From: Egibacter rhizosphaerae
Lineage (GTDB): Bacteria; Actinomycetota; Nitriliruptoria; Euzebyales; Egibacteraceae
Reading direction: 5' to 3'
Length of the DNA stretch: 64,000 nucleotides
Assembly (NCBI RefSeq): GCF_004322855.1
Contig: NZ_CP036402.1
Coordinates: forward strand, 1,178,001 to 1,242,000
This document shows positions 41,051-62,325 of the stretch, in pieces. The notes below the pieces were generated by a model. That model worked only from the letters and a program-made list of their open reading frames with translations. It made no database searches and was not told the DNA's origin. Made by a program: the position numbers and the translations under genes. Position 1 is the stretch's first letter. The number at the start of each line of letters is the position of its first letter.

Positions 41051-42340
41051 TCAGCCGGCGTCCGAGAGATGACGGGCGACGAGGGCAGCGGCGCTCAGCG
41101 CATCGCGGTCATCGCCCGGCAAGGCCACGACCTGCACCCCGAGGGGGAGGCCGTGCTCACCCGCGAGACCGGGTACGGCGACCGCGGGGGTGCCGAGCAA
41201 CGTCCACGGGCGGCACAACACGGGATCGCCGGTCGAGTCGGCCTTCGGAGGCTCGTTTACCACCGCCGGCACGAGCAACGCGTCGACGCCGTCGAACGCG
41301 GCAGGCAGTTCCTGCTGGCGCACCTGGTCGGCCCGCGCGAGCGCGGCCTCGTAGCGTCCCGCCGGGATGCGCTCACCGCGGTCCAGGTACTCGCCGAGCG
41401 TCTCCGAGAACTGGGACGCGTTCGCCCGGCGCAGCGCGCCGAGCTGGCGTGAGGCCTCCGCCGCCATGACGGTCTCCTGCACCTCGACGAGATCGCCGAG
41501 GCTGTCGGGCAGTTCGTGCGGCGTCGCGATCTCGGCGTGCTCGAGCGCTTCGAAAGCCTCGGCCAACCGCTCTCGAGCGCTCGGGGCCACGCGCTCCCAC
41601 CACGGCGTTCGGGCGAGCCCCAGCCGCACCGGAACGTCAGCCGCAATGAAGCTCGCCTCGTCGCCCCCGAGAACCTGTCCGGCACAGGCGACATCCTCGA
41701 CGTGAAGGCCGATCGGGCCAACGGTGTCCAGCGTCGGTCCGACCGGAAGCACGCCCTCCGTCGGCACGCGGTCGAAGGTCGGCTTGAAGCCGACCACCCC
41801 GCAGTAGGCCGCGGGGCGGACGATGGACCCAGCGGTCTGGGTGCCCAGGGCAAGCGGAACCATGCCGGCCGCCACGGCCGCCGCCGACCCACTCGACGAT
41901 CCGCCCGGTGTGCGGCTGACGTCATGGGGGTTGCGGGTCGGCCCGGGATGGAAGAGGGCCACCTCGGTCGTGACCGTCTTGCCGAGAATCACCGCCCCGG
42001 CGGCCCGCAACCGCTGGACACAGGTCGCGTCCAGGTCGGGTTGCCGACCCTCCCACACACTGCTGCCGCGGGCCGTCGGAAGGTCGGCGGTGTCGATGAT
42101 GTCCTTCACCCCGACCGGCACGCCGTGCAACGGGCCCCTGGCGGGCTCGACATCGCGCGCCCGCGCCTGCTCCAGCGCGTGGTCCGCATCCAGGTGGGCC
42201 CAGGCGCGCACCCGAGGCTCGCGTTGCTCAATCACGTCGAGGCATGCCCGCACGAGCTGCTCGGACGTCCGACGCCCCGTGCGCACGTCGTCAGCGGCGG
42301 CCACCGCCGAAGGGACGGCAGGTTCGGGGCCTGTGTCCAT
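41051..42340 (-). CDS. Amidase (amidase signature family)
   Basis: 429 residues from ATG 42340 (MDTGPEPAVPS). The Ser-cisSer-Lys triad is complete: Lys in GVPVGVKDIID, the Gly/Ser-rich signature TPGGSSSGSAAAVAAG, and the nucleophile region GTQTAGSIVRPAAYCGVVGFKPT. The family hydrolyses aliphatic and aromatic amides, ureido acids and malonamate (malonamidase E2 belongs here). In this setting I propose malonamate or a ureido acid as substrate. The gene follows hyuA's start by 26 bases on the same strand and is divergent from the NCS2 permease. A large hairpin sits in its leader. Confidence 0.88.
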   Translation of the reverse strand: MDTGPEPAVPSAVAAADDVRTGRRTSEQLVRACLDVIEQREPRVRAWAHLDADHALEQARARDVEPARGPLHGVPVGVKDIIDTADLPTARGSSVWEGRQPDLDATCVQRLRAAGAVILGKTVTTEVALFHPGPTRNPHDVSRTPGGSSSGSAAAVAAGMVPLALGTQTAGSIVRPAAYCGVVGFKPTFDRVPTEGVLPVGPTLDTVGPIGLHVEDVACAGQVLGGDEASFIAADVPVRLGLARTPWWERVAPSARERLAEAFEALEHAEIATPHELPDSLGDLVEVQETVMAAEASRQLGALRRANASQFSETLGEYLDRGERIPAGRYEAALARADQVRQQELPAAFDGVDALLVPAVVNEPPKADSTGDPVLCRPWTLLGTPAVAVPGLAGEHGLPLGVQVVALPGDDRDALSAAALVARHLSDAG

Positions 42341-42369
42341 CGCAGCTCCCGTCGCCGTCACGCTCCATG

Positions 42370-42418
42370 CGGGGCGGGCACCGACCACGACCGCCGGGCC
42401 GTCGGCGCACCCGCCCCG
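42370..42418 (-). promoter_or_regulatory. Large GC-rich hairpin in the amidase leader
   Basis: CGGGGCGGG pairs with CCCGCCCCG (9 bp) and, inside, CCGAC pairs with GTCGG. The structure ends 30 bases before the amidase ATG in the amidase/permease divergent region. It could act as an attenuator or affect translation; no known riboswitch class was recognised. Confidence 0.35.
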
Positions 42419-42598
42419 GCTGGCAGCCTAACCTCCCCGCGCTGCGCACGTGTAGGCACGACCTACTGACGATCCCCCGTTCCGTCGAGCACACTCTGCC
42501 AGCAGCGTCCGTTCGATCTCCGGACCGGGGAGGCCCACGTCCACCGGCAGCCCCGGCCTTCCCCGACCGGTCCCAGGGATGCCGTGAGGAGGACGAAG

Positions 42599-43981: not shown

Positions 43982-43996
43982 GGCGACCGCCCCGGC

Positions 43997-44653
43997 TCAG
44001 CGGGCCAGACGCCGCCCCACGAGCACGCCGGCGAGCGCGATCAGCGCGCCGAGCACGCCCGCCCCGAGCAGCCAGCGCGGGTCGCCGCCGGCAGCACCGG
44101 CCTTCGCCGGCGCGCGAAAGACCTGACCGGGCTGCACACCGGTGGCCTCCGTGGGCGCGCCCGCTGCGGCGGGCGCCGCCTCCGCCTCGGTGGGTGCGGG
44201 CTCGACCAGCGTCTCGCCGGCGAGGTAGCGGTCCACGGCCTCGAAGAACTGCTGGGCGTTGCGCTTGGCCACCCCGATGAGCACCCGCTGTCCGACGCCG
44301 GCGATGGTGCCGCCGACGATCGCGTCCGCGTCGTAGGACAGGCGGGTCGTCCCGGGGCCCGCTTCCTCGAGCGTGATCCGCGCCGACGCGTCGACCGTTC
44401 CGGGGCCGCCGGAACCCGAGGCCTTCAGCGTATAGGCCTCCGGCTCGACCTGGTCGGCCAGGGCGACCTCGCCCGTGTACGTCCCGGTAATCGAGGCCAC
44501 GCCGACATCGAGGGTGATCTTGTAGACGCCGTCGCCCTGGGCGGTCAGCTCCCGACAGCCGGGCAGCGTGGCCGCGAGCACGTTGGGGTCCTGCAGTGCG
44601 TCCCAGACCTGCTGGCGCGACGCGTTCAGCGTGTGCGTGTCGGCAACCTTCAT
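43997..44653 (-). CDS. coxG: CoxG family SRPBCC protein with C-terminal membrane anchor
   Basis: 218 residues. Residues 1-145 are a SRPBCC/START-type fold: MKVADTHTLNASRQQVWDALQDPNVLAATLPGCRELTAQGDGVYKITLDVGVASITGTYTGEVAL and GTTRLSYDADAIVGGTIAGVGQRVL. A Pro/Ala-rich linker precedes a C-terminal helix WLLGAGVLGALIALAGVLVGRRLAR. CoxG recruits CO dehydrogenase to the membrane in Oligotropha; homologues accompany many form II molybdenum hydroxylases and probably link the enzyme to the respiratory chain. It overlaps coxL by four bases. Confidence 0.9.
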   Translation of the reverse strand: MKVADTHTLNASRQQVWDALQDPNVLAATLPGCRELTAQGDGVYKITLDVGVASITGTYTGEVALADQVEPEAYTLKASGSGGPGTVDASARITLEEAGPGTTRLSYDADAIVGGTIAGVGQRVLIGVAKRNAQQFFEAVDRYLAGETLVEPAPTEAEAAPAAAGAPTEATGVQPGQVFRAPAKAGAAGGDPRWLLGAGVLGALIALAGVLVGRRLAR

Positions 44654-47064
44654 CGGGGGACTCCCTCGTCGGAGGCGGTCGGCGCGGTGCCCTGTCCGTC
44701 CGCCGCCGCGCCGGTGCGTGACAACTCCCAGATCTCGGGGGGCGAGAGCGGCATCCGGTCGACCTCCACGCCGATGGCGTCCTCGATCGCCGCGGCGAGC
44801 ACCGCCGCGCCCGGGATCACCCCGGCCTCGCCGGCGCCCTTGATCCCGAGCGGGTTCAGGGGCGTCGGGGTCTCCAGGTGGTCGATCTCGATGCGCTGCG
44901 GCACCTCGGTCGCGTAGGGCATGAGGAAGTCCATGAACGACGCGTTCTGCAGCTGGCCGTACTCGTCGTAGGCCATCCGCTCGAAGAGCGCCCCCGCGAC
45001 CCCCTGCGCGACCCCGCCGTGGATCTGTCCCTCCACGATCGTCGGGTTGATCAGGTACCCGCAGTCGTGCACCACGCCGTACCGCAGGATCTCAACGTCG
45101 CCGGTCTCGGGATCCACGGCGACGACGCACGCATGGAACCCGTTCGCGAACGTCGACTGCGTCGGACTGTAGTAGTCCTTGCCCTCCAACCCGGGCTCGT
45201 CTCCCTCCGCGACCGGAGGGCCTCCGTCGCCTTTCAGCGTGAACTGCGTCGCGGCCTGGGCCTCCTCGCTGAAGGAGTAGCGCAGCGGGTTGGACAACAC
45301 CGCGACGTGTTTCAGCTCGATCTGCGCCTCGGGGCTCCCCTTCACCTGCACCACGCCGTCGACGATCTCGAGATCGTCGGGATTCGCCTCGAGCGCGTCG
45401 GCGGCGATCCGCAACGCCTTCTCACGCACCTTGCGCGTGGCCAGTGCGATCGCGTTGCCGCTCATCACCGCCGCGCGGGAGGCGAACGTGCCCACCGCGT
45501 AGCCGAACCGGCGCGTGTCGCCGGTGGTGACGTGCACGTCCTCGAACGGCACGCCGAGCTCGCTGGCGACGATCTGGGCGAAGACCGTCTGGTGGCCCTG
45601 TCCCTGGCTCGTGAGCCCGGTCGAGACCATCACCCGGCCGTTGGTCTCGACGTGCACGTGCCCGCCCTCGTACGGGCCCACGGCCGTGCCCTCGACGTAG
45701 CCGGCGAGGCCGACGCCGATGCGGCGGCCGTCGGGCGCCTCCTTCGACAGGTGCTCGTAGTCCACGAGGTCCAGCAGCTTCTGCAGGCTCGCGGGGAAGT
45801 CGCCCGAGTCGTAGATCGCCGGCTTGCCGTCCTGGAACATCAGCCCGAGGTCGTAGGGCATCTCGTCGGGCTGGATGAAGTTGGCGAACCGGACCTCGGC
45901 ACGGTCCTTGCCGAGGCGGGTGGCGATCTTGTCGATCGTGCGCTCCATCGTGAACACGCCCTGCGGACGGCCGGCACCGCGGTACGGGGTGACCATCACG
46001 GTGTTCGTGTAGACGCTCGTGAACTCGACCCGGTAGGCGCCGAGCTTGTAGGGCCCCGGCAGCTGGGTCGAGGTGATGATCGGGACGATGATCCCGTAGG
46101 GCGTGTAGGCCCCGTTGTCGTGCAGGAACTCGACGTCGAGCCCCAGGATGCGCCCGTCCTCGTCGAAGCCCACCCGTACGTGGTGCACCTGGCCGCGCTC
46201 GTGCGCGCTCGACACGAAGTGCTCCCGGCGGTCCTCGACCCACTTCACCTCCCGCCCGAGGGTCTTCGCCGCCCACGGCACCAGCAGCTCCTCGGGGAAC
46301 GGATGGACGATCTTGACCCCGAAGCCGCCGCCGACGTCCGGCGCGATCACCTCGACCTGCGCGTCCGCGAGCTCGAGCGCGTTCGCGACCGCGGCCCGCA
46401 CGCTCGTGGACGTCTGCGTCGAGGAGTAGGCGCGCAGGCGTTGGTCGTCGGCGTCCCAGCGCGCGTAGACCCCCCGGCCCTCGAGCGGCATGGACGCGCT
46501 GCGCTCGATGTCGAGACGGAACTCCAGGGTGTGCGGCGCCCCGTCGATCGCGGCCGGCGCGTCGCCGACCTCCTGTACGAGGTGCGCGGCGACGTTGTCG
46601 GGGATCTCGTCGTGGACGGCGGTCTCCCCGCGCGCGGCCTCCTCGAGGTCGACGATCGGGTCGAGGAAGTCGTACGAGACCCGGATGCGCTCGGCGGCGT
46701 CCTCGGCCACGTACCGGTCGGTCGCGACGACCATGGCGATCGCCTCCCCGACGTGGTTCACCTCGCCGTTGGCGAGCGCGTACGCGGTCCGCGGCGCCCG
46801 CAACGCGGGATGCGGGATCAGCACCGGCAAGGGCTTGGCCATCTTCTCGGGCAAGTCCTCGTAGGTGTAGATCGCCACCAGCCCGTCGACGTCGAGCGCA
46901 TCGGTCACGTCGATGTCGGTGATCCGCGCGTGGGCGTGGGGGCTGCGGACGAACGCGACGCCGAGGGCGTTCTGGCCGAGGTCGTCGACGTAACGCCCCT
47001 CGCCGCGGAGCAGCCGCGGATCCTCGCTCCGCGCGACCTTCTCGCCGAACAGCTTCGTCGTCAT
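44650..47064 (-). CDS. Molybdenum hydroxylase large subunit, form II CoxL-like
   Basis: 804 residues from ATG 47064. Xanthine dehydrogenase family Mo-binding subunit: GEGRYVDDL, the Q-loop region DVGGGFGVK, and the active-site loop PYRGAGR at residues 360-366. True CO dehydrogenase (form I) has AYxCSFR; form II has AYRGAGR, so this is not a CO oxidiser by sequence. TSQGQGHQTVFAQI and the C-terminal IKGAGEAGVIP, with the essential Glu, complete the Mo-pterin cytosine dinucleotide site. It probably hydroxylates a heteroaromatic ring carbon next to nitrogen with water as oxygen source. The context suggests uracil or thymine to barbiturate, an inference. Confidence 0.9.
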   Translation of the reverse strand: MTTKLFGEKVARSEDPRLLRGEGRYVDDLGQNALGVAFVRSPHAHARITDIDVTDALDVDGLVAIYTYEDLPEKMAKPLPVLIPHPALRAPRTAYALANGEVNHVGEAIAMVVATDRYVAEDAAERIRVSYDFLDPIVDLEEAARGETAVHDEIPDNVAAHLVQEVGDAPAAIDGAPHTLEFRLDIERSASMPLEGRGVYARWDADDQRLRAYSSTQTSTSVRAAVANALELADAQVEVIAPDVGGGFGVKIVHPFPEELLVPWAAKTLGREVKWVEDRREHFVSSAHERGQVHHVRVGFDEDGRILGLDVEFLHDNGAYTPYGIIVPIITSTQLPGPYKLGAYRVEFTSVYTNTVMVTPYRGAGRPQGVFTMERTIDKIATRLGKDRAEVRFANFIQPDEMPYDLGLMFQDGKPAIYDSGDFPASLQKLLDLVDYEHLSKEAPDGRRIGVGLAGYVEGTAVGPYEGGHVHVETNGRVMVSTGLTSQGQGHQTVFAQIVASELGVPFEDVHVTTGDTRRFGYAVGTFASRAAVMSGNAIALATRKVREKALRIAADALEANPDDLEIVDGVVQVKGSPEAQIELKHVAVLSNPLRYSFSEEAQAATQFTLKGDGGPPVAEGDEPGLEGKDYYSPTQSTFANGFHACVVAVDPETGDVEILRYGVVHDCGYLINPTIVEGQIHGGVAQGVAGALFERMAYDEYGQLQNASFMDFLMPYATEVPQRIEIDHLETPTPLNPLGIKGAGEAGVIPGAAVLAAAIEDAIGVEVDRMPLSPPEIWELSRTGAAADGQGTAPTASDEGVPR

Positions 47065-47630
47065 CGGCCGCTCCCCTCCGCCTTGCCGGGGTCCGCACGT
47101 AGGCCCGCCGAACGCACCGGCCGGTCCACCGCCGGGACCGGCTCCTCCGCCTCCGACACGAGCTCCGCGGCGCGGTGCACGGCTGCGACGATGTTCTGGT
47201 AGCCCGTGCACCGACAGAGGTTGCCCGCGATCCCCTCGCGAACCTCGTCCTCGTCCGGGTCGGGATTCTCGGCCAGCAGCCCGCACGTCGTCATCAGGAA
47301 CCCCGGCGTGCAGAAACCGCACTGCAGTCCGTGGCAGTCCGCGAACGCCTGCTGCACCGGGTGCAGCGAGCCGTCGGCGGGGTTGAGGCCCTCGACGGTC
47401 GTGATCGCCGCGCCACGGGCCGCGACCGCGAAGGTGAGGCAGCTGCGGACCGGCTCCCCGTCGAGCAGCACGGTGCAGCAGCCGCACACGCCGTGCTCGC
47501 ACCCCACGTGGGTGCCGGTCAGTCCGAGATCGTGGCGCAGGGCGTCGGACAGCAGCCGACGCGGGGGCAGCGTGACCTCGTGTGGCGCTCCGTTGACCAT
47601 CAGCGTCACGTCGACCGTTGGCTCGCTCAT
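47061..47630 (-). CDS. Molybdenum hydroxylase iron-sulfur subunit (CoxS/XdhC type)
   Basis: 189 residues from ATG 47630, with a GAG-rich site upstream. Two 2Fe-2S clusters: a plant ferredoxin-type set GCEHGVCGCC with a further Cys near residue 64, and the helical set LQCGFCTPG plus NLCRCTGYQN. It passes electrons from the Mo centre to FAD. A C-terminal extension of about 25 residues beyond CRCTGY is rich in Pro, Glu and Arg. It overlaps coxL by four bases, and coxM ends 58 bases upstream of its start. Confidence 0.93.
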   Translation of the reverse strand: MSEPTVDVTLMVNGAPHEVTLPPRRLLSDALRHDLGLTGTHVGCEHGVCGCCTVLLDGEPVRSCLTFAVAARGAAITTVEGLNPADGSLHPVQQAFADCHGLQCGFCTPGFLMTTCGLLAENPDPDEDEVREGIAGNLCRCTGYQNIVAAVHRAAELVSEAEEPVPAVDRPVRSAGLRADPGKAEGSGR

Positions 47631-47688
47631 GCGCTCCTCGCTCCTGTCGCCTGGGGAATGGCGCCCTGCGTTGCTGGGCCGTCCGCCA

Positions 47689-48588
47689 CTACGCGGCCGC
47701 GGGCACACGATCGCGAGCGTGCGCCGAGGCCTGCGCGAGCGCCCGCGCGGTCAGCACGCTGGCGAGGTGCCGGCGGTACTCCGCCGGGGCGTGCAGGTCG
47801 GCCTCGGGCTCACAGGCCGCAGCGACCCGCTCCCCCGCCGCCGACCAGGCCTCGGGCGCGGTCGCTGGTTCCAGCGACCGGCCGGCGGCCGCATCGCCGA
47901 CGTCGAGGACCAGCGGCGTGGGGTGCACGCTGATCGTCGCGATCCGAGCGGCAGCGACCTCACCGTCGGGGGCGTCGACGGTCGCCGCGATTCCGCAGAG
48001 CGCGTAGTCCCCGTGGCGGCGGGCGCGCTCCACGAACGCCGACCCCGTCGTGGCCGGAAGCGCCGCGAACTCCGCGTGTGTCACGAGCTCGCCGGGCGCG
48101 ATGTCGGCCTCGAGCGGCCCGAGGAAGAAGTCCGACGCCGACACCCGGCGGGTCACGACCTCACCGCCGTCGCCCGCGCGGGCCAGTTCGACCACGCCGT
48201 CGCACAGCGCCAACACGGCGGTCAGCTCTCCGGCGGGGTCCGCGTGCGCCAGGCTGCCGACGACCGTCCCGCGGTTGCGGATCACCTCGTGGGCCACGTA
48301 GCCGAGGGCCTGCGGGAGCAGCGGGTTGGCCTCCCCCGCCTCCCGATGGCGCTCGAGGTCGCGGTGGCGCACCGCCGCGCCGACCCGGACCGTGTCCGAG
48401 GACACCTCCACGGCGCGCAGCTCCTCGATGCCGGTGACGTCGACGAGGGCCCGCGGGGCCGTGAGCCGCATGTTCAGCAGGGGGATCAGGCTCTGCCCCC
48501 CGGCGAGCACCTTCCCGCCCTCGCCGAGCCGTCGCACGGCCTCGGCCACGGTGTCCGGCGCGTGATATTCGAACGGCGGAGGCTTCAT
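47689..48588 (-). CDS. Molybdenum hydroxylase FAD subunit (CoxM type)
   Basis: 299 residues from ATG 48588. FAD-binding domain of the PCMH type: FEYHAPDTVAEAVRRLGEGGKVLAGGQSLIPLLNMRLTAPRALVDVTGI (the AGGQSL motif holds the FAD pyrophosphate) and the second motif NRGTVVGSLAHADPAGELTAVL. The C-terminal CO_deh_flav_C domain has GSAFVERARRHGDYALCGIAATV. It completes the L-S-M enzyme, with reducing power passing to quinone or another acceptor. It is separated from DUF1116 by 154 bases, where a promoter for the cox genes may lie. Confidence 0.93.
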   Translation of the reverse strand: MKPPPFEYHAPDTVAEAVRRLGEGGKVLAGGQSLIPLLNMRLTAPRALVDVTGIEELRAVEVSSDTVRVGAAVRHRDLERHREAGEANPLLPQALGYVAHEVIRNRGTVVGSLAHADPAGELTAVLALCDGVVELARAGDGGEVVTRRVSASDFFLGPLEADIAPGELVTHAEFAALPATTGSAFVERARRHGDYALCGIAATVDAPDGEVAAARIATISVHPTPLVLDVGDAAAGRSLEPATAPEAWSAAGERVAAACEPEADLHAPAEYRRHLASVLTARALAQASAHARDRVPAAA

Positions 48589-48742
48589 GCCGCGTTCCTT
48601 CCGTCGGTCCGCAGACTCGGCGTACGCACGCCGGGGTGCGTTGACCCACCGTCCCGCGACGTCGCTCCGTCGACGCAGCACCGCCCGCAGGGTAGCCGCC
48701 ATCCGACTGGCGCACGCGTGGGCGCCACGTCGGGGACCGGGC

Positions 48743-50209: not shown

Positions 50210-51747
50210 CGGGTCTCTCCCAGCAGCTCGACTGCGGCGCGTGTCGCGGCCGCGTTGGACAGGTAGATGCTCGCCCCGGCGTCGACGAGCTCGGCGGCCT
50301 GGCGCGTGAGGTCCTGCGGGTCGTCGCGCGTGCCGATCAGCGACACGATCGCGGCGAACTGACCGCCGGCGTCACGGGCCGCGGTGCGCGCCTCGGCGAT
50401 CGCCGGGCCGAGCTCGCTCGCCGGGTTCGGGTGCGCGACGTGGCCGAGCACCACATCGAGCAGGACGACCACGCGGTGGCCGGATCCCGCCTCCGCGTCC
50501 AGCCGGTCGATCCGGATCGTGTTGTCGATCATCGGGTGCGGACGGCCGGAGGTGAGGTCGTCCTCGCCGTAGTCCACCATCGCGTGGCCGGCGCCCTCGA
50601 TCCCGTGCAGGGGCTCGTGCGGGTCGAGCGCCCAATCGTCCTCGAGCGGCACGTTCGAGCGGATCGGTCCGAGCCGCTCGGCCGCGATGGCCATGGACTC
50701 GTCGCAGAGCGTCCCTCCCGCGAACAGCCCGCGCAGCACCTCGTACCCCGACCCGACGGTGCGGTTCGGCGTCCACGTGCGTGGGGGCTGCGGGTCGTGC
50801 CCCAGCGTCGACAGCGCGGCCTCCGCGACCTCGGTGAGGTCCCGCTGACCGGGGCCCACGAGGCCGAGGACCACGGGGGTCGCGCACTGCTCCGCCGCCT
50901 CGCGGATGCGCTCGGCCACGGCCTTGTCCGGCGGCTTCGAGACGAGGACGATCACCTCGGTGGCCGGATCCGCGTCGAGCGCCTCGAGCGCCTGGATCGT
51001 CGCGATGCCGCCGACGTCGGCGGAGAGGTCGCGGCCACCGACCCCGAGCACGTGGCTGACGCCCACCCCGGCCGCGTCGAGCAGCGAACACACCTGTTGC
51101 GCGCCGGTCCCGCTCGCGGCGACCATCCCGACCGGACCGGGGCGCATCACGTTGGCGAAGCCGAGACCGACCCCGCCCACGATCGCGGTGCCACAGTCGG
51201 GGCCCATCACGAGCCGGTCGCGCTGCCGGGCCTCGGCCTTCAGCGCGATCTCCTGCTCCAACGGCACCCCGTCGCTGAACACCATCACGTTCGCGCCCGC
51301 GCGCAGGGCGTCCATCGCCTCCGTGAAGGCGTACTGGCCGGGGACGGTCACGAGCGCGAGCCCGGCACCGAGCGCTCGGGTGGCGCTGCCCAGGGTCCGC
51401 GGGGCCTCGCCGGTGTCGGCGAGCCCGTCGCTCCCGCCGCCGGCCGAGGCCTGCGTGAGCTGCGTGTCCACGGCCGTGCGGGCCGCGGCGAGATGATCGG
51501 CGTCGTCGGCCGCCAGCGCGACGACGAGGTCGTTCGGCCCGGCCTCGCCGGCGTCGAATCCCGCCTGCTCGAGCAGCTCGAGGTTGAGCGGGGTGGCCAT
51601 CGCGATCAGCGCCGTGCGCACCCCGGGGCCTCGGGCCACCTCCTGGCTCACGACCATCAGGGTCACCGAGTCGTGGTAGGCCCCCGGGCGCACCTCCAGG
51701 TGGCGCACGACGTCGTCGCGCGCCTCGGATTCGGCTGCGGTCGTCAC
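50206..51747 (-). CDS. fdrA: FdrA-like acyl-CoA-synthetase-fold carbamoyltransferase subunit
   Basis: 513 residues; GTG 51747 overlaps the upstream stop, with GAGGAG before it. A succinyl-CoA-ligase-like fold: ALVTVPGQYAFTEAMDALRAGANVMVFSDGVPLEQEIALKAEA, VMGPDCGTAIVGGVGLGFANVM and VGMVAASGTGAQQVCSLLDAAGVGVSHVLGVGGRDLS are FdrA hallmarks; the last third has HPMIDNTIRIDRL and VVLLDVVLGHVAHPNPA. E. coli FdrA (AllF) is part of the oxamate transcarbamylase. It would use phosphate and a carbamoyl-bearing acid to form carbamoyl phosphate in the cytoplasm. Confidence 0.9.
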   Translation of the reverse strand: MTTAAESEARDDVVRHLEVRPGAYHDSVTLMVVSQEVARGPGVRTALIAMATPLNLELLEQAGFDAGEAGPNDLVVALAADDADHLAAARTAVDTQLTQASAGGGSDGLADTGEAPRTLGSATRALGAGLALVTVPGQYAFTEAMDALRAGANVMVFSDGVPLEQEIALKAEARQRDRLVMGPDCGTAIVGGVGLGFANVMRPGPVGMVAASGTGAQQVCSLLDAAGVGVSHVLGVGGRDLSADVGGIATIQALEALDADPATEVIVLVSKPPDKAVAERIREAAEQCATPVVLGLVGPGQRDLTEVAEAALSTLGHDPQPPRTWTPNRTVGSGYEVLRGLFAGGTLCDESMAIAAERLGPIRSNVPLEDDWALDPHEPLHGIEGAGHAMVDYGEDDLTSGRPHPMIDNTIRIDRLDAEAGSGHRVVVLLDVVLGHVAHPNPASELGPAIAEARTAARDAGGQFAAIVSLIGTRDDPQDLTRQAAELVDAGASIYLSNAAATRAAVELLGETR

Positions 51748-52622
51748 GGGAGCTCCTCTCGCAGGGGGTCGGGGACAGTGGGGTCATTGGCAGGGGGCGA
51801 TCCGGGAGCATCCGACGCACCGAGCGGCGCGGGCGGCAGCACGAGCCGGGTCCCCAGGCGGATCCCGGCGAGCAGATCGCGACCGCTGGTCCCCCCGACG
51901 GCGGCGAGCCGCGCCATCGCCGCATCGATACCCCGTCCGCTGGCCAGTGCCACCAGGACACGCGCGGCGGGGGCCGAGGGCCGGCCGTCGGCCGCGTGCC
52001 CGAGCAACGCGGCGGACACGAGCGGGGTCCGGTCCACTGCCAGCTCGCGACAGGTCGTGGCCACCGCGTCGACCACCGGGAGGGTGTCGGCGCACCGTTC
52101 CGTCAGCGCGTCCGGCAACGTACATGCCGCGGCGAGCAGCCCCGCCAGCAGGTCGTCACCCGCCGGTGTCAGCCCGACCCCGGCGCCGATCAGCGCCTTC
52201 GCCGCGTCCGCGGCAGCGCCGGGCTCCCGGCGCCGGACCGCTTCCTCGAGCCGCTGCGCGGCGCCGTTGGAGCCCGCAGGCAGACCCGGAGCGCGGCTGG
52301 GTAGCGCGCGCGCAACAGCGGCCAGCGCGTTGCCCGTCGTGACCGGGAGCGAGGGCCGCGGCTCCCACCATCGCCGCACCACCACCTCGACCTCGCCGCA
52401 GGTGAGCCGCCCCGCTCCGACGACCACGGGCCCGCGACGGGCGATGGCGCGCAGTGGTGCGGGGTCGGCGACGACGACCGAGTTCGGCAGTGCCGCAGCC
52501 TCCCGGTCGACGAGTGCGATCACGTCGGCATCGACCGCGAGGTACGCCGCGTGATCGAACGCGGCCAGCGTCCTCGCCGCCCGCGCCGGGCCGTCGAGCA
52601 GCTCGGCGACCGCCGTGCTCAC
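51744..52622 (-). CDS. DUF2877 protein (YlbF/AllH-like carbamoyltransferase subunit)
   Basis: 292 residues from GTG 52622 (MSTAVAELLDGPARAARTLAAFDHAAYL). An in-frame GTG at 52673 is possible and would leave only four bases after the arcC stop; neither start has a convincing ribosome site. DUF2877 features are the glycine-rich loop AKALIGAGVGLTPAGDDLLAGLLAA, DRTPLVSAALLGHAADGRPSAPAARVLVAL and GGTSGRDLLAGIRLGTRLVL. In E. coli the relative YlbF (AllH) completes the oxamate transcarbamylase. It overlaps fdrA by four bases. It is the most variable member of the three and may set substrate choice, which is inference. Confidence 0.83.
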   Translation of the reverse strand: MSTAVAELLDGPARAARTLAAFDHAAYLAVDADVIALVDREAAALPNSVVVADPAPLRAIARRGPVVVGAGRLTCGEVEVVVRRWWEPRPSLPVTTGNALAAVARALPSRAPGLPAGSNGAAQRLEEAVRRREPGAAADAAKALIGAGVGLTPAGDDLLAGLLAAACTLPDALTERCADTLPVVDAVATTCRELAVDRTPLVSAALLGHAADGRPSAPAARVLVALASGRGIDAAMARLAAVGGTSGRDLLAGIRLGTRLVLPPAPLGASDAPGSPPANDPTVPDPLREELP

Positions 52623-52677
52623 CGCGCCGCCACGACCGGTGACAGGCTGCGGCGGACGGGAGGCCGTCGCCACCTGG

Positions 52678-53637
52678 CTAGCCACGCTCCACCTGCGTGC
52701 CGGAGCTCCCCGCGGCCACGTCGGTGATGTCGTCCAGGTCACCGATCGCCGCCCAGGGCTCGACGACGGTCGACCCCTCGACGAACCGGGCACAGGCCTC
52801 GACCTTCGGCGCCATCGAGCCCGCTGCGAAGTGCCCGTCGGCCTGCAGCCCCCGCAGCTCACCGGCGGTCACCGAATCGAGCCAGCGCTCCTCGGGCGTC
52901 CCGAATCCGGTGGCCACGCCGGGGACGTCGGTGAGGATCAACAAGCGCTGCGCGCCCACCGCGTGCGCGAGCGGCACCGCCGCGAGGTCCTTGTCGATGA
53001 CCGCCTCGACCCCGTGCAGCGAGCCGTCCTCGGAGCGCACCATCGGCACGCCACCGCCACCGTTGGCGATCGGGATGGCGCCACCCTCCAACACGAGGGC
53101 GAGGCTCTGACCGTCCAGGGGCTCGCGCGGCTCGGGGCTGGCCACGACCCGGCGCCAGCCCTTCTCGCCCTGGCGTGCCCAGTGCTCCCCGGTGGCCTGC
53201 ACCTGGCGCTCGACCTCCTCGGGGTCGGTGAGGTAGCGGCCGACCGGCTTCGTCGGCGAGGCGAACGCGGGATCGTCCCGGTCGACCCGCACCCGGCTCA
53301 CCAGCGGGATCACCGGAACGGGACGACCGCGCGCAGCCAGTTCGGCCTCCAGGGCGGTGCACATCGTGAAGCCGATCGTGGCCTGGGTCTGCGCCACGCA
53401 CCAGTCGAGGGGCATGGGCGGCACGACGTCCTTCGCGAGATCGTTCTTGAGCAGGAGGTTGCCGACCTGGGGTCCGTTGCCGTGGGTCAGGACGATCTCG
53501 TGGCCCGTCTCGACGAGATCCGCGACCAGCCGCATCGCGGCGGTGATGTTGCGCGTCTGCTCGTCGGCCGTGCCACCGGAGCCCGCCGGTGCGATCGCGT
53601 TGCCCCCCAACGCGATGACCACCCGCGCGCCGCTCAT
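52678..53637 (-). CDS. arcC: Carbamate kinase
   Basis: 319 residues from ATG 53637. Amino-acid-kinase fold: VVIALGGNAIAPAG, VLTHGNGPQVGNLLLKND, MPLDWCVAQTQATIGF, the active-site lysine and Asp/Asn in IPIANGGGGVPMV and AVIDKDLAAVPLA, RLLILTDVPGVATGFGTPEE, and the closing GSMAPKVEACARFVEG. It makes ATP from carbamoyl phosphate and ADP, releasing carbamate (CO2 and NH3). No arginine deiminase or ornithine carbamoyltransferase accompanies it, so the carbamoyl phosphate must come from elsewhere; the next three genes supply a candidate. It is first in this four-gene unit. Confidence 0.95.
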   Translation of the reverse strand: MSGARVVIALGGNAIAPAGSGGTADEQTRNITAAMRLVADLVETGHEIVLTHGNGPQVGNLLLKNDLAKDVVPPMPLDWCVAQTQATIGFTMCTALEAELAARGRPVPVIPLVSRVRVDRDDPAFASPTKPVGRYLTDPEEVERQVQATGEHWARQGEKGWRRVVASPEPREPLDGQSLALVLEGGAIPIANGGGGVPMVRSEDGSLHGVEAVIDKDLAAVPLAHAVGAQRLLILTDVPGVATGFGTPEERWLDSVTAGELRGLQADGHFAAGSMAPKVEACARFVEGSTVVEPWAAIGDLDDITDVAAGSSGTQVERG

Positions 53638-53854
53638 ACGGCTACCTCACGACCGCGCGCGGCGGGACGTCCTGCGCTCATGGCCCCTCCTTCGTCCCCG
53701 AGGCACCGTCCGGGCACGAGTACGACGGTCGACGCGGACTGTACGGAGCCACCACGTCCACCGGCATGGTCAGATTCTGCCGAAGATCGGCCCAGATGTT
53801 GGGCGATCCCTCCCCCTTGACCCGCGGCCGCCGACGCGGCAGCGCGGGAACCGG

Positions 53855-53883
53855 TGGTGGGCGGGCTCGTGGCCCGCCCACCA
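53855..53883 (-). terminator. Strong hairpin between the second permease gene and arcC
   Basis: GGTGGGCGGGC and GCCCGCCCACC form a perfect 11-bp stem with a 5-base loop, 46 bases past the permease stop, in the 291-bp gap before arcC. It probably ends permease transcripts; arcC would then need its own promoter. No T-run is present. Nothing else was recognised in the gap. Confidence 0.6.
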
Positions 53884-53928
53884 TGCTGCCGGAGACCGTG
53901 GGGCGGGACCGCGCCCGCCCCGTCATGG

Positions 53929-55401
53929 TCAGGCCTGGCCGCCCCAGGGGCCGCCACCCTGACCCTGGTCCGGGTTGTTCGGGTCGATCGGCTCCGACGC
54001 CTCGGTCGGCGCAGTACCGGCTGCTTGGAGACCGCGCTCGACCTTCGTCCCCGGAATGATGTTGTCCAGGATCAGGCCGAGGATCGCGGCGACCGCCATT
54101 CCGGTGGTGCCGACGGTCGTGATGATGCCGTCGAGCTCGTCGATGCCCGTCAGCACCGGCTCGTACTCGGCGAAGTAGTACGGCACCGAGAGCCCGGCGA
54201 AGAGGATGAACCCCATGATCATGAGGTTGCGCTGACTGGTGAGGTCCGCGCGGGTCGACTGGCTGATCCCGATCGACGCGATCAGCCCGAACAGCAGGAA
54301 GTAGAGCCCGCCGACGATCGGGGTGGGCAGGGTTGCGACGGCAGCGCCGAACCGCTCGAACAACCCGACCACCAGGAGAATCGCGGCCGCCGTGTACACG
54401 ACCACTCGGCTGGCCACGCGGGTGAGACCGACCAGCCCGATGTTCTCGGTGTAGCTGGTCGAGCTGAAGCCGCCGACGAGTCCGCTGATGAAGCAGCCGA
54501 TGCCCTCGGCACCGATGCCGCGGTTGACCTGCTTCTCGCTCGGCTCGCCCGCGCCCGCGGCCCGGGCGACCGCGAAGTAGTCCCCGAACGACTCGATCAT
54601 CGACGCGAGGAAGCCGGCGAGCGTCCCGATGACCGCGCCCGTCACGAAGTTCGGCAGGCCCCACGGGAAGATCAGCGTCGTGGGGTCACGGAACCACGCG
54701 GCGTCACCCACGGGGCCGAAGTCCACCGCCTGCGCGCTGTCGGCGGCGAACACGCCCGCCCCGGTGAGACCCACCGCGATGACGTACGTCACCACGATCG
54801 CGAGCAGGATCGGGAACAGGGCGAAGAACTTGATCTTCTGCGCCAGGATCAGCGTGAACGTGATTCCGAGGACGATCGTGATCACCGCGAGGGGCCAGCC
54901 GCCCGCGGCGTTGTCCGCAGCCGCGTCGAACAGCGCGAGCCCGATCAGGGCGATGACCGGCCCGATCACCACCGGCGACACGAACTGGCGGACCTTGCCG
55001 AACAAGGTCGAGTAGCCGAGCAGGATCTGCACGAGCGACCCGGCCATGATCGCGCCGGCGATCACCGGCATCGCGTCAGTCACGCCGTCCGGGTTGGCGG
55101 CGATGATCGCGAAGAACGGGCCGAGGAACGCGAACGACACGCCCTGGATCAGCGGCAACCGCGTACCGATCCGGACCTGCAGGAACGTCGCGATCCCCGA
55201 AGCGATCATGACCGAGGAGATCAGCACCGCCTGCTCTTGCGGACTCGCGCCCATCTCCGGTCCCAACAGCAGCGGCACCGCGATGGTCGCGCCGAACATG
55301 GTGAGCACGTGCTGGATCCCCAGGCCGAGCATGGTGACCGGCTTGGGCACGTCGTCCAGCGCGTACCGCATCTGCTCCTTGCCCATCATCTGTTCACTCA
55401 A
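53929..55401 (-). CDS. NCS2 (uracil/xanthine-type) permease
   Basis: 490 residues. The start is TTG 55401: AAGGAGG lies six bases upstream of it, whereas the in-frame ATG at 55389 would be 18 bases away. About 14 helices. NCS2 features are LGIQHVLTMFGATIAVPLLLGPEMG, IQGVSFAFLGPFFAII, SMIESFGDYFAVARAAGAGEPSEKQVNRGIGAEGIGC and SSTSYTENIGLVGLTRVASR. The glutamates in MIESFGDYF and TSYTENIG are in the usual nucleobase contact positions. A C-terminal tail of about 30 residues is Pro/Asn/Gly-rich. It probably brings pyrimidines in for the adjacent dihydropyrimidinase set. Confidence 0.9.
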   Translation of the reverse strand: MSEQMMGKEQMRYALDDVPKPVTMLGLGIQHVLTMFGATIAVPLLLGPEMGASPQEQAVLISSVMIASGIATFLQVRIGTRLPLIQGVSFAFLGPFFAIIAANPDGVTDAMPVIAGAIMAGSLVQILLGYSTLFGKVRQFVSPVVIGPVIALIGLALFDAAADNAAGGWPLAVITIVLGITFTLILAQKIKFFALFPILLAIVVTYVIAVGLTGAGVFAADSAQAVDFGPVGDAAWFRDPTTLIFPWGLPNFVTGAVIGTLAGFLASMIESFGDYFAVARAAGAGEPSEKQVNRGIGAEGIGCFISGLVGGFSSTSYTENIGLVGLTRVASRVVVYTAAAILLVVGLFERFGAAVATLPTPIVGGLYFLLFGLIASIGISQSTRADLTSQRNLMIMGFILFAGLSVPYYFAEYEPVLTGIDELDGIITTVGTTGMAVAAILGLILDNIIPGTKVERGLQAAGTAPTEASEPIDPNNPDQGQGGGPWGGQA

Positions 55402-55503
55402 CAGGGCCCTCCTTCGTGGCTTGGTCTCTCCGCCTGGTCCAACCCGCCGCCGTCGGCCCGCCGCCGGGTCCGTGGGTGTGGCGTCGTGGCGTCCGCGACC
55501 GCC

Positions 55504-56905
55504 CTACGCGTCATAGGCGTTCACGCCACGGCGCACGAACTGTCCATGACCGGCCCGTCCGGTCCACTCGCGACCGTCGAGGACGACGGAGCCGCGGGAC
55601 AGGACGGTCTCTGCACGACCGACGACCTCTCTGCCCTCGTAGCAGGAGTAGTCGACGGCCATGTGGTGGGTCTCGGCCGAGAGCACGTGCCGGGCCTCGG
55701 GGTCGTAGACCACGAGGTCGGCGTCGGCTCCCGGGGCGATCTCTCCCTTGCGGGGGTGCAACCCGAACAGCTTCGCGGGTGTGGTGGCGCACAGCTCCAC
55801 CCACCGCTCGCGGCTGATCCGGCCGGTGCGCACGCCCCCGTCGTGCAGGAGGTCGAGCCGGTGCTCCACGCCCGGCAGGCCGTTGGGGATCTTCGTGAAG
55901 TCGTCGCGGCCGAGCTCCTTCTGTCCGACGAAGCAGAACGGGCAGTGGTCGGTCGAGACCGCCTGCAGGTCGTTCGTGCGCAGGCCGTGCCACAGCGCCT
56001 CGTGGTGCTCGGGGGGGCGCAGCGGCGGCGAGCAGACGTACTTGGCGCCGCCGAACGGGCCGTCATCGGTCGACCCGCGCAACTCGTCGAGGGTAAGAAA
56101 CAGGTATTGCGGACAGGTTTCCCGCGTAGACCGACTGTCCCGCATCGCGGGCGTCCTGGACCTCGCGCAGGGCGTCCTCGGCGGACAGGTGGACGATGTA
56201 GAGGGGTGTGCCGGCGAGGCGAGCGAGCTCGACCGCGCGGTGCACGGCCTCCCCCTCCATCGAGGCGGGGCGGGTGAGGCCGTGCTCGATCGGCTGGGTC
56301 CGCCCGGCCGCGAGTGACTCCGCGACCAGCACGTCGATCGCGATGCCGTTCTCGGCGTGCAGCATGATCTGCGATCCGTTGTCGCCGGCCCGCTTGAGCG
56401 CCCGGAGGATCTGGCCGTCGTCGGAGTAGAAGACCCCCGGATAGGCCATGAACAGCTTGAACGAGGTCACGCCCTCGTCGACGACGGCGTCCATCTCCTT
56501 CAGCGACTGCTCGTTGACGTCGCTCATGATCATGTGGAAGCCGTAGTCGATCGAGCAGACCCCGTCCGCCTTGCGGTGCCACTCCTCGAGGCCCTCGCGC
56601 AGCGCGCCCCCGCGCGGCTGGATCGCGAAGTCGACGATGGTCGTGGTCCCGCCCCAGGCGGCCGCGGCGGTACCGCTCTCGAAGTCGTCGGCGGAGAAGG
56701 TTCCGCCGAAGGGCATCTGCATGTGCGTGTGCACGTCGATCCCGCCGGGGATGACGTAGCGGCCACCGGCATCGATCGTGCGCTCGACTCCATCGGCGGG
56801 CAGGTCGCGCCCGACGGCGGCGATCCGCTCGCCGTCGACGAGGACGTCCGCCTCGCCCGACCACGTGCTGGTCACGACGGTCCCACCGGAGATCAGGGTG
56901 CGCAT
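55504..56905 (-). pseudogene. Dihydropyrimidinase/D-hydantoinase, single-base frameshift
   Basis: ATG 56905 has GAGGAG upstream. Two overlapping frames together give a normal 466-residue dihydropyrimidinase. The switch is at a CCC run (56121-56123 on the plus strand): after GQSVYA the frame continues as GNLS, while the family sequence ETCPQYLFLTLDEL continues one frame over, so one extra G is present. Metal ligands are intact on both sides: VHTHMQ, the carbamylated Lys in TSFKLFMAYPG, MLHAENG, YIVHLS and the Asp in STDHCPF. It opens dihydrouracil or hydantoin rings. With no other damage, this may be an assembly error or a very recent mutation. Confidence 0.88.
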
Positions 56906-57022
56906 CGTTCGGGCTCCTCTCTCCGCTGCAACGGCTCCGGGGCTGGCGTCTCGAGGGATCGCGTCCTGTGGTGGGTCGTGGGAGCGCGCGGCCGGACTCT
57001 TCCCCCCGCGATCGGCGCCTCC

Positions 57023-57865
57023 CTAGGCCTCGAACAACGGGCCGTAGGTGTCGGGGCGACGATCGCGGTAGAACTGCCAGGTCCGGCGGACCTCGGTGAT
57101 CTGATCGAGGTCGAGGTCGCGGACGAACAGCTGCTCCTCGGCGTCGCTCGCGGTGCCGTCGACGAACTGGCCGCGGGGGTCCGAGAAGTAGCTCGTGCCG
57201 TAGAAGTCGTTGTCGCCGAGCGGCTCGATGCCGACCCGGTTGATCGCGGCGACGAAGTACCCGTTCGCGACCGCACTCGCGGTCTGTTCCAGTTGCCAGA
57301 GGTGGCTCGAGAGCCCCCGGGACGTGGCCGAGGGGTTGAAGACGACCTCGGCGCCGGCGAGCCCGAGCGCCCGCCAGCCCTCGGGGAAGTGTCGGTCGTA
57401 GCAGATGTAGACGCCGACCGTGCCCACCGCGGTCTCGAACACGGGGTAGCCGAGGTTGCCCGGACGGAAGTAGAACTTCTCCCAGAAGCCCGGCAGGTGG
57501 GGGATGTGGGTCTTGCGGTACTTGCCGAGGTACGTCCCGTCCGCGTCGATGACCGCCGCGGTGTTGTACAGGAACCCCGGCCCGTCCTCCTCGTAGATCG
57601 GTACGACCAGGACGAGCCCGGTCTCGCGTGCGATCTCCTGCATGCGCGTCGTGGTCGGCCCGTCGGGCACGGCCTCGGCGAAGTCGAACCAGGCGGGGTC
57701 CTGGACCTGACAGAAGTAGGGGCCGTTGAAGAGCTCCTGGAAGCAGAGCACGCCGGCCCCCTGCTCGGCGGCATCGCGGGCGACCCGCTCGTGGTGCTCC
57801 ACCATCGAGGTCGAGTCGCCGGTCCATTTGGCCTGCACGATCGCGGCTCGCACGGTCCTGCTCAT
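57023..57865 (-). CDS. Beta-ureidopropionase-like carbon-nitrogen hydrolase
   Basis: 280 residues from ATG 57865, with GGAGGAGCAGAGG upstream. Nitrilase superfamily with the Glu-Lys-Cys triad: E in GVLCFQELFNGPYFCQ, K in GKYRKTHIPH and C in VGVYICYDRHFPEG. The FFCQ-like motif and the stretch NPSATSRGLSSHLWQLEQTASAVANGYFVAAINRVG match beta-ureidopropionase and N-carbamoylputrescine amidase. Directly upstream of the dihydropyrimidinase, the role is N-carbamoyl-beta-alanine to beta-alanine, CO2 and NH3, the third step of reductive pyrimidine breakdown. Operon order is barbiturase family gene, this gene, dihydropyrimidinase. Confidence 0.9.
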   Translation of the reverse strand: MSRTVRAAIVQAKWTGDSTSMVEHHERVARDAAEQGAGVLCFQELFNGPYFCQVQDPAWFDFAEAVPDGPTTTRMQEIARETGLVLVVPIYEEDGPGFLYNTAAVIDADGTYLGKYRKTHIPHLPGFWEKFYFRPGNLGYPVFETAVGTVGVYICYDRHFPEGWRALGLAGAEVVFNPSATSRGLSSHLWQLEQTASAVANGYFVAAINRVGIEPLGDNDFYGTSYFSDPRGQFVDGTASDAEEQLFVRDLDLDQITEVRRTWQFYRDRRPDTYGPLFEA

Positions 57866-57921
57866 CCTCTGCTCCTCCGCCGCCTTGCTGGCTTCGGCCG
57901 TGCCGCCGGCAAGTGTCCGAG

Positions 57922-59019
57922 TCAGTCTCCCACGTCGACGATCGCCGCCACCGGGCCGCCTCCCGCGGGACCCTGATGCAGGGCCCCGACCGAGACGAAC
58001 ACCGCCGGGTCGCCGACCGCCGCCGCGGTCACCCCTCCGACCGCGCCCTTCGCGTGACGATGCCAGTGCACGTCCGAGTCGTCGAGCATGATCTGTCGGC
58101 GACCCCGCAACGTCGCGTCCGGGGCCGCTTCGCACTTCAGGAACACGTTGACGAAGCGCTCGTCGATGTCGCCCGGATGAGGGCGGTCAGGCAGGTCCAG
58201 GCCCGCCGACCGCAGCGCCCGGTAGATCCCGTCGAAATCGAGCGCGTCCTCCATCACGGAGTGTCCGATCCGATACCGGCCACCCACGCCCGGCGCGTTC
58301 CCCACCACGACGATCTGCCCGCGCTCGAGCTCCACGCCCGACGAGCACGAGGCGACCGACGAGTAGAGCGAGTGGTCCTTGCCGATCTGCTCGGCGGTGG
58401 GCATGTCGATCTCCCCGAGGCCGACGGCGATACCCAGGCCGGTGGTCCCGTTCGACATGTCCATCGACTGGTGGATGTCCTCACTGAAGACCGTCTGTCC
58501 CCGGGACTTCGCGTCGTTGATGGTCTCCATCGTGAGCAGCGGCGTCTTCGTCTGGACGTAGTGCACCTCGGAGGGATCGGTGATCCCCGCCGCCTTCATC
58601 GCGTCCCGCACGCCGTGCGCGATCTTCTCGACCATCGCCGGGCGCCCGATGTCCTCGGGTTGGATGACCTCGCTCATCGCGATCCCGGCCGTGAGACGCG
58701 GCTCGGGCCTGGGGTTCGGGTCGTCGACCCGGGCGAACACCGTCGCGTGCGGCGTGATCACCCCGTCACAGCCGCCCGACCAGACCATCGGGATCTGATC
58801 GATCTCGGACTGGCCGCGGGTGCCGCGCTCGAGGAGCACCTGATCGAAGGCCATGTCGGCGAGGACACGCGTGAAGTCGTTGACGCCGCCGTTGCCCTCG
58901 GTCTTGCCGATGATCCCGAAGACGTCGTCGGCTCCGAACGCCCCGTCGTCGATCAGCGCCGCGAGGCCGCTGGCGTCGTTGACGCTGCCGATCTCGACCT
59001 TGCGGACCTCGAATGCCAC
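57922..59019 (-). CDS. Ring-opening amidohydrolase: barbiturase/cyanuric acid hydrolase family
   Basis: 365 residues from GTG 59019, with AAGGAGG four bases upstream. The family has three similar domains, each giving a Lys and a Ser. Visible are K in [15 protein letters not shown] with S in [12 protein letters not shown] in VQTKTPLL with the [11 protein letters not shown] segment, and [10 protein letters not shown] with [21 protein letters not shown], the last being the family's metal-binding C-terminus. Enzymes of this rare family open barbituric acid (to ureidomalonate) or cyanuric acid (to carboxybiuret). I cannot separate these from sequence alone; pyrimidine-type neighbours favour barbiturase. 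It is divergent from pucR. Confidence 0.88.
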
Positions 59020-59267
59020 GCATCCTCCTTGTGGTCGTGGTGACTGGGGGTCGGGCTCCGGCTGCGGCCACCAGCAAGGCCACCCCCGGGAGCGTGCTGG
59101 TGAACGGTGGACGTTAGCGCACGACGGCCCGGCGCCGATATGGCAACATACTCCCAGTCTCCAGTTCATCATTGTCATTCTTTGCCGGAGCGACCGAGTG
59201 GGGACGGCGCCGTGGTGGCGATCGCCCTCGGGCACCCGCACTCGGTCCGGCTGATCGCGAGGGGCGG
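59020..59267. promoter_or_regulatory. Divergent promoter region between the barbiturase-family gene and pucR
   Basis: This 248-bp region contains an AT-richer patch at about 59140-59185 (GATATGGCAACATAC, CATCATTGTCATTC), unusual against the GC-rich background. It is the likely place for the start sites of the catabolic operon (minus strand) and of pucR. A specific PucR site is not recognised. Confidence 0.4.
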
Positions 59268-62299: not shown

Positions 62300-62325
62300 G
62301 TTCGATTCCTTTCGGCCTCCGTCGA

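Follow-up and report, generated by a model that had tools for sequence, protein, structure and literature searches.

Which acyl urea does an AllFGH-type carbamoyltransferase split when its genes lie close to those of a barbiturase and a molybdenum hydroxylase? This question is raised by a stretch of 64,000 nucleotides from Egibacter rhizosphaerae (RefSeq assembly GCF_004322855.1, contig NZ_CP036402.1, positions 1,178,001–1,242,000 of the forward strand), hereafter called the window. The genome is a single contig of 4.64 Mb with an estimated completeness of 95.7%, and the G+C content across the window is 72%. The cluster in the window probably encodes an oxidative degradation of pyrimidines in which the AllF–AllG–AllH trio phosphorolyses ureidomalonate to carbamoyl phosphate.

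The gene cluster and the proposed route

From position 59019 down to 33273, the minus strand carries, in its first half, genes for a barbiturase, a nitrilase-superfamily protein, a frameshifted dihydropyrimidinase, an NCS2 permease, carbamate kinase, AllH, AllF and AllG. The second half continues with CoxM, CoxS, CoxL, CoxG, an amidase, HyuA, HyuB, a family III CoA-transferase and an AccD–AccA-like carboxyltransferase. The plus strand of this region holds a second NCS2 permease, a phosphosulfolactate phosphatase-like gene (36068–36763) and a PucR regulator. The three subunits of the trio are encoded together, and the carbamate kinase gene adjoins them. The genes assigned to the route, and the recurrent neighbours HyuA and HyuB, are as follows.

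57922–59019, minus: barbiturase (AtzD/barbiturase family, barbiturase type); PF09663, 474 bits; 5hwe, 541 bits; Ser-Asn
53929–55401, minus: NCS2 nucleobase permease, which adjoins barbiturase in many loci of the class; PF00860, 276 bits
52678–53637, minus: carbamate kinase (ATP from carbamoyl phosphate); TIGR00746, 331 bits (cut-off 358); NF009007, 267 bits (cut-off 266)
51744–52680, minus: AllH (DUF2877), third subunit of the trio; PF11392, 74 bits (cut-off 25); the open reading frame extends to 52862, and the true start is estimated to lie near the carbamate kinase stop
50206–51747, minus: AllF/FdrA, first subunit of the trio; NF004760, 399 bits, slightly below the cut-off of 433
48743–50209, minus: AllG (DUF1116), second subunit of the trio; PF06545, 304 bits (cut-off 27)
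47689–48702, minus: CoxM, FAD subunit of the molybdenum hydroxylase; PF00941, PF03450; open reading frame 47689–48774, start uncertain
47061–47630, minus: CoxS, [2Fe-2S] subunit; PF01799, PF00111
44650–47064, minus: CoxL, form II molybdopterin subunit, proposed uracil/thymine hydroxylase; NF040766, 1432 bits; motif PYRGAGR
43997–44653, minus: CoxG; PF06240, 91 bits
42584–43981, plus: second NCS2 permease; PF00860, 297 bits
41051–42388, minus: amidase-signature enzyme, candidate malonamate amidohydrolase; PF01425, 284 bits
38739–41024, minus: HyuA, ATP-dependent hydantoinase/caprolactamase-like alpha subunit; PF01968, PF05378; NF050156, 501 bits (cut-off 1000)
36784–38742, minus: HyuB, beta subunit; PF02538, 448 bits
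34818–35966, minus: family III CoA-transferase, proposed malonate activation; PF02515, 421 bits
33273–34784, minus: AccD–AccA-like carboxyltransferase, proposed malonyl-CoA decarboxylation; PF01039, PF03255

In the proposed route, the NCS2 permeases would import pyrimidine bases, and CoxMSL, with CoxG, would oxidise uracil, and perhaps thymine, to barbiturate, as its recurrent place beside barbiturase suggests. The putative barbiturase, whose close relative 5hwe has known activity, would open the ring to give ureidomalonate (3-oxo-3-ureidopropanoate). AllF–AllG–AllH would then transfer the carbamoyl group of ureidomalonate to phosphate, yielding carbamoyl phosphate and malonamate, as the Escherichia coli complex does with oxalurate, and carbamate kinase would convert carbamoyl phosphate into one ATP, CO2 and NH3. 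The amidase may hydrolyse malonamate to malonate, which the CoA-transferase and the AccA/AccD-like carboxyltransferase would then turn into acetyl units. In effect, the trio and the kinase would replace the urea-releasing ureidomalonase of Rhodococcus; by the known chemistry of carbamate kinase, the gain would be one ATP per pyrimidine relative to the release of urea.

This route had first been proposed from the letters of the window without database searches. Every gene named in that sequence-only reading was recovered in its place by profile searches; it left out the dihydropyrimidinase and the nitrilase-superfamily gene between permease and barbiturase, and was silent on the recurrent flanking genes (HyuA/HyuB, the family III CoA-transferase, the AccA/AccD-like carboxyltransferase and the PucR regulator). 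No paper combining barbiturase with carbamate kinase was found in the literature searched, which mostly lacked subscription journals, and no ureidomalonate paper on this gene combination was found there by titles and abstract openings.

Barbiturase, trio and carbamate kinase across Actinomycetota

By sequence, the ring-opening enzyme is a barbiturase (EC 3.5.2.1). It scores 541 bits against the solved barbiturase 5hwe and 312 bits against the highest-scoring cyanuric acid hydrolase. Like 5hwe, the window protein has a Ser-Asn pair where aligned cyanuric acid hydrolases show Ser-Arg, the arginine of the latter (Arg188, counted from the conserved lysine) being replaced by asparagine. Ser-Asn is found in 21/21 barbiturase-type proteins (67–78% identical to that of the window) from a sample of 396 genomes of the same phylum, the window's genome included. 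It also occurs in 80/80 named loci, which are the best 80 of at least 582 barbiturase relatives, belong to Actinomycetota wherever the title tells and are therefore biased towards close relatives. Five distant AtzD relatives in the phylum sample (38–43% identical to the window's) comprise two with Ser-Arg and three with Ala-Asn, so that identity, and not asparagine alone, marks the barbiturase type. PMC4051656 prints glutamine at the discriminating position for the barbiturase subgroup; the aligned residue counted here is asparagine.

The same evidence bears on a cyanuric acid pathway, in which an AtzD-type hydrolase would form carboxybiuret for an AtzE-like amidase. The NCBIfam cyanuric acid amidohydrolase model passes its cut-off on the window enzyme (452 versus 360 bits), and the window amidase matches the AtzE model below cut-off. 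Such a pathway is nevertheless extremely unlikely: the enzyme is far closer to 5hwe and carries Ser-Asn, and AllG occurs in 0/5 genomes of the phylum sample with the more distant AtzD types. It was rejected on the barbiturase-like sequence. This grouping makes unlikely an enzyme specific for cyanuric acid, which would have counted against the earlier reading.

A plasmid search with the barbiturase returned 132 records, 2 at 60–80% identity (Nonomuraea, Embleya) and 130 below 60%. In another locus (L088, genome G181), an AtzD-family protein of another type, 38% identical to the window's, is encoded beside an amidase and CoxMSL (CoxL 55% identical), in a genome without AllG.

The trio follows the barbiturase closely. 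Within the phylum sample, AllG is present in 48/396 genomes and the AtzD family in 26/396; AllG occurs in 21/21 barbiturase-type genomes versus 27/375 others (Fisher p = 5e-22, a value that ignores relatedness and includes the window's genome). One class accounts for 18 of the 21 barbiturase-type genomes, and the other three belong to families f31, f34 and f38. AllG and barbiturase share a contig in 16/21 of these genomes, approximately 3–44 kb apart, and lie on different contigs of draft genomes in the other five. The 27 genomes with AllG and without barbiturase indicate that the trio has other roles too.

Among the 80 named loci, AllG lies within the retrieved stretch in 16. Elsewhere in the genome it was found for 45/48 and 13/14, that is 58/62, of the searchable genomes among the remaining 64, so that 74/78 examinable barbiturase loci have AllG in the locus or genome. 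The four without it are a metagenome-derived genome (G404) and three Rhodococcus/Rhodococcoides genomes. In 52/80 named loci a carbamate kinase gene on the barbiturase strand stops fewer than 600 nt upstream of barbiturase, and one more locus has the kinase elsewhere in the stretch. In larger stretches from five genomes, AllG and AllF (joined in four by AllH) share a contig with an NCS2 permease, CoxMSL, CoxG and HyuAB, and in these genomes kinase and barbiturase lie approximately 20–55 kb from AllG (the barbiturase place in one, G403, was taken from the named-genome scan). A PucR match stands beside AllFGH in four of these five stretches, and several related loci have one next to the cluster. 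HyuAB likewise accompanies barbiturase in many clusters. Tblastn matches to the CoA-transferase and to the AccA/AccD-like carboxyltransferase were obtained in 20/80 and 17/80 barbiturase loci, respectively. Because gene order is conserved across many genomes, the arrangement in the window is not a chance one. The co-occurrence of trio and barbiturase, which the sequence-only reading had suggested as a test, is strongly positive, and its interpretation of the link between barbiturase, trio and carbamate kinase is supported.

The trio branch and its possible substrates

Relative to the E. coli proteins, the window sequences show 39% identity for FdrA/AllF, 44% for YlbE/AllG, 42% for the ybcF/AllK kinase and 34% for AllH (over 126 amino acids only). 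In an unrooted AllG tree of 84 rows, a branch with 100/99 support divides the 68 rows from barbiturase genomes from the 16 others, E. coli included. Window AllG falls on the barbiturase-genome side and not with the E. coli protein, which pairs with a row from a genome (G380) that encodes a 55% identical AllD close to its trio. Grouped with the window's class in this tree is a named Nitriliruptoraceae row (L165), which makes Nitriliruptoria the probable class. The 16 others are E. coli and 15 of the 29 AllG places from non-barbiturase genomes; matches shorter than 300 residues and near-duplicates were dropped, and the tree leaves out second AllG copies (G378, G397, G398, G423, G448) and the loci of one later 14-genome search. 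Two AllG columns are special to the barbiturase-genome group, Ser110 and a glycine at position 438 (65/68, versus histidine in 14/16 others), and for AllF 41 rows were compared with 10. The residues that set the AllG/AllF group apart are suggestive only. An AlphaFold model of AllG based on 15 sequences was of poor quality (mean pLDDT 59, below 50 for residues 396–488) and was not used.

Two described systems resemble the trio and kinase of the window. The E. coli AllFGH–AllK oxamic transcarbamylase operon has the same three subunits and a carbamate kinase, with acyl-urea phosphorolysis as the expected shared chemistry, but its trio sits with AllC, AllD and AllE, whereas that of the window sits with barbiturase and a molybdenum hydroxylase (PMC11326118). 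In nitrifiers, allFGHK lies beside biuret/triuret genes and, as in the window, the trio and kinase occur without upstream allantoin genes; the authors propose oxalurate as substrate, and the word barbiturase does not occur in the main text of that report (PMC12625717).

Several observations weigh against ureidomalonate as the substrate of the trio, or against the complete route. The metagenome-derived genome G404 has carbamate kinase beside barbiturase but no AllG. In 27/80 named loci no carbamate kinase match was found in the retrieved stretch, the rest of these genomes not having been searched. The same holds for the stretches in which barbiturase, AllH, AllF and AllG stand in a row (L129, L139, L142, L173, L182, L186, L196 and L067, the last of which lies outside the 80 named loci). 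Some barbiturase genomes carry further, distant AllG copies (the five second copies left out of the tree), and group-specific residues are few, two in AllG and one in AllF. No universal malonamate hydrolase gene was found across the loci: an amidase of the window type (54–57% identical) occurs in four other retrieved loci of the class, and was not found between HyuA and CoxG in L063 or after CoxG in L077. Furthermore, the genome of E. rhizosphaerae has four Ldh_2 matches, all outside the window, the best being 35% identical to E. coli AllD. As allantoicase makes ureidoglycolate and no PF04115 lyase was found in the genome, oxalurate could be a second substrate of the trio. Finally, in family f6 (L092, L096) the trio stands with HyuAB and CoxL/CoxS/CoxM in genomes without barbiturase, and is therefore not tied to barbiturase alone; L096 also holds an amidase, CoxG, an AMP-binding ligase and a 5′-nucleotidase.

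The Ldh_2 matches and the lyase result belong to an alternative in which the trio serves purine breakdown, with ureidoglycolate from allantoicase oxidised to oxalurate, which the trio splits, and the barbiturase neighbourhood is a shared nitrogen-catabolic island. Consistent with this, the genome contains a purine cluster (C1:2.013–2.021 Mb, L106) encoding xanthine dehydrogenase, allantoinase and an allantoicase–OHCU decarboxylase fusion, and oxalurate is the substrate of the E. coli trio (PMC11326118). This alternative appears unlikely, however. The purine cluster is approximately 0.8 Mb from the window and has no trio in its retrieved stretch; the only AllG of the genome is that of the window, where no ureidoglycolate dehydrogenase AllD is linked to the trio; even the closest Ldh_2 protein is distant from AllD; window AllG stands apart from those of E. 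coli and G380; and the trio tracks barbiturase across the phylum. For the earlier reading, a complete set of allantoin genes using the trio would have refuted the proposal; an allantoin cluster is present, but without the trio, and with no PF04115 lyase found. Neither urease alpha nor RutA (best match 52 bits, cut-off 498) turned up in the genome, which counts for the proposed route. Close to the purine cluster is a DUF6986 gene.

The family f6 loci, in turn, are consistent with a trio that acts on the product of HyuAB, formed from another ring such as a hydantoin-like or 5-methylated one, with barbiturase merely a neighbour, and the recurrence of HyuAB in the clusters agrees with this. Two arrangements make this account improbable. 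In L129, L139, L142, L173 and L067, barbiturase, AllH, AllF and AllG in a row accompany a molybdenum hydroxylase with no HyuAB match in the retrieved stretch, and R. erythropolis keeps HyuAB with barbiturase and has no AllG. The large and medium subunits of the hydroxylase in those five loci are 28–33% identical to the window's, and the enzyme seems to have been exchanged there. L092 and L096 possibly represent a sister pathway with HyuAB as the ring opener.

The malonamate step is a tentatively assigned part of the route through ureidomalonate. The window amidase might act as a malonamate amidohydrolase, and Nit-like matches of 28–37% identity occur in 22/80 loci.

Rhodococcus, the molybdenum hydroxylase and flanking genes

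The oxidative pyrimidine pathway of R. erythropolis comprises uracil/thymine dehydrogenase, barbiturase and ureidomalonase. One Rhodococcus-type genome appears to hold the 5hwe enzyme itself: the barbiturase of R. erythropolis NBRC 15567 matches 5hwe in 101/101 compared residues, and is 68% identical to the window's (tblastn). PMC3961730 counts strain JCM 3132 among pyrimidine users and cites the barbiturase paper for it. As in the window, CoxMSLG, an NCS2 permease, HyuAB, a CoA-transferase, an AccA/D-like gene and PucR surround the R. erythropolis barbiturase. In contrast with the window, which has the trio and kinase, the three Rhodococcus/Rhodococcoides genomes have no AllG in the genome and no kinase match in the retrieved stretch (40 kb for R. 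erythropolis), and an amidase follows barbiturase. In R. erythropolis this amidase starts approximately 135 nt after barbiturase, and in the two further Rhodococcus-type loci barbiturase is likewise followed by this amidase (79–96% identical). With three amidase queries, none of the 77 remaining named loci, some of whose stretches are incomplete, showed a match immediately after barbiturase. No amidase-signature gene lies right behind the window barbiturase, and the window amidase shares 29% identity with the Rhodococcus amidase.

Malonic acid and urea are the reported products of barbiturase and ureidomalonase (PMC3758960). Because the amidase follows barbiturase in Rhodococcus, we infer from gene context that it is a candidate ureidomalonase, in whose place the trio and kinase stand elsewhere. 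That Rhodococcus should be the exception fits, since the pathway reported for the Rhodococcus barbiturase includes ureidomalonase (PMC3758960).

The CoxL of the cluster passes the cut-off of NF040766, a model named for aerobic carbon monoxide (CO) dehydrogenase. Form I aerobic CO dehydrogenases carry the active-site motif AYxCSFR; window CoxL has PYRGAGR instead. It shares both the model match and this motif with the form II family, but sits in a pyrimidine cluster, and for this reason nucleobase hydroxylation is likelier than CO oxidation. A molybdenum hydroxylase recurs beside barbiturase in related loci, and in most clusters holding both CoxL and barbiturase the CoxL is 68–79% identical to the window's (60% in R. 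erythropolis). The pyrimidine context suggests that the CO dehydrogenase name is misleading for the protein encoded at 44650–47064.

Taken across the phylum, the balance of evidence leans towards the energy-conserving form as the usual oxidative pyrimidine route of Actinomycetota. A dedicated AllFGH branch would act as a ureidomalonate carbamoyltransferase feeding carbamate kinase, the Rhodococcus ureidomalonase would be the exception, the form II 'CO dehydrogenase' would be a uracil/thymine dehydrogenase and the HyuAB arrangement would replace barbiturase in other families. If so, a phosphorolytic, ATP-yielding branch would be added to pyrimidine catabolism, and a carbamoyltransferase that received its gene assignment in 2024 (PMC11326118) would gain a second substrate. 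Candidate genes would also be named for ureidomalonase (the amidase behind Rhodococcus barbiturase) and for uracil/thymine dehydrogenase, the latter now labelled CO dehydrogenase by models; such relabelling would matter for surveys based on counts of form II coxL genes.

Three further features border the barbiturase gene or lie near it.

57023–57865, minus: nitrilase-superfamily (CN hydrolase) protein, N-carbamoylputrescine amidase-like; PF00795, 215 bits; TIGR03381, 259 bits (cut-off 410)
55504–56905, minus: dihydropyrimidinase-like gene in two open reading frames (55504–56145 and 56063–56905); TIGR02033, 315 and 254 bits, profile positions 2–261 and 259–454
59172–60998, plus: PucR-type regulator, divergent from barbiturase; PF07905, PF13556

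The first two, situated between permease and barbiturase, would allow a phosphorolytic form of the reductive pathway, in which the trio acts on N-carbamoyl-beta-alanine from the window dihydropyrimidinase, and a class III aminotransferase lies close by. This is very unlikely: a frameshift near 56.1 kb breaks the dihydropyrimidinase-like gene, dihydropyrimidine dehydrogenase was not found in the genome (best match 122 bits, cut-off 335, next to carAB-like genes), and neither the dihydropyrimidinase nor the N-carbamoyl amidase-like gene has a reported match in 40 related loci. The failure to find the dehydrogenase, together with a dihydropyrimidinase that is broken and lacks conservation, led to rejection of the reductive pathway. 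The nitrilase-superfamily gene lies outside the conserved core of the cluster.

The broken dihydropyrimidinase beside the N-carbamoyl amidase-like gene could be an artefact of sequencing or what is left of a decaying reductive pathway. A promoter and terminator scan of 53600–59300 found nothing. The class III aminotransferase and an alanine dehydrogenase lie beside PucR (60995–63393), and a class III aminotransferase (31%) is also encoded in the R. erythropolis barbiturase cluster (L246:2561-3784). In Nocardioides halotolerans, a PEP mutase-family gene (L241:998-2107) lies between HyuB and carbamate kinase.

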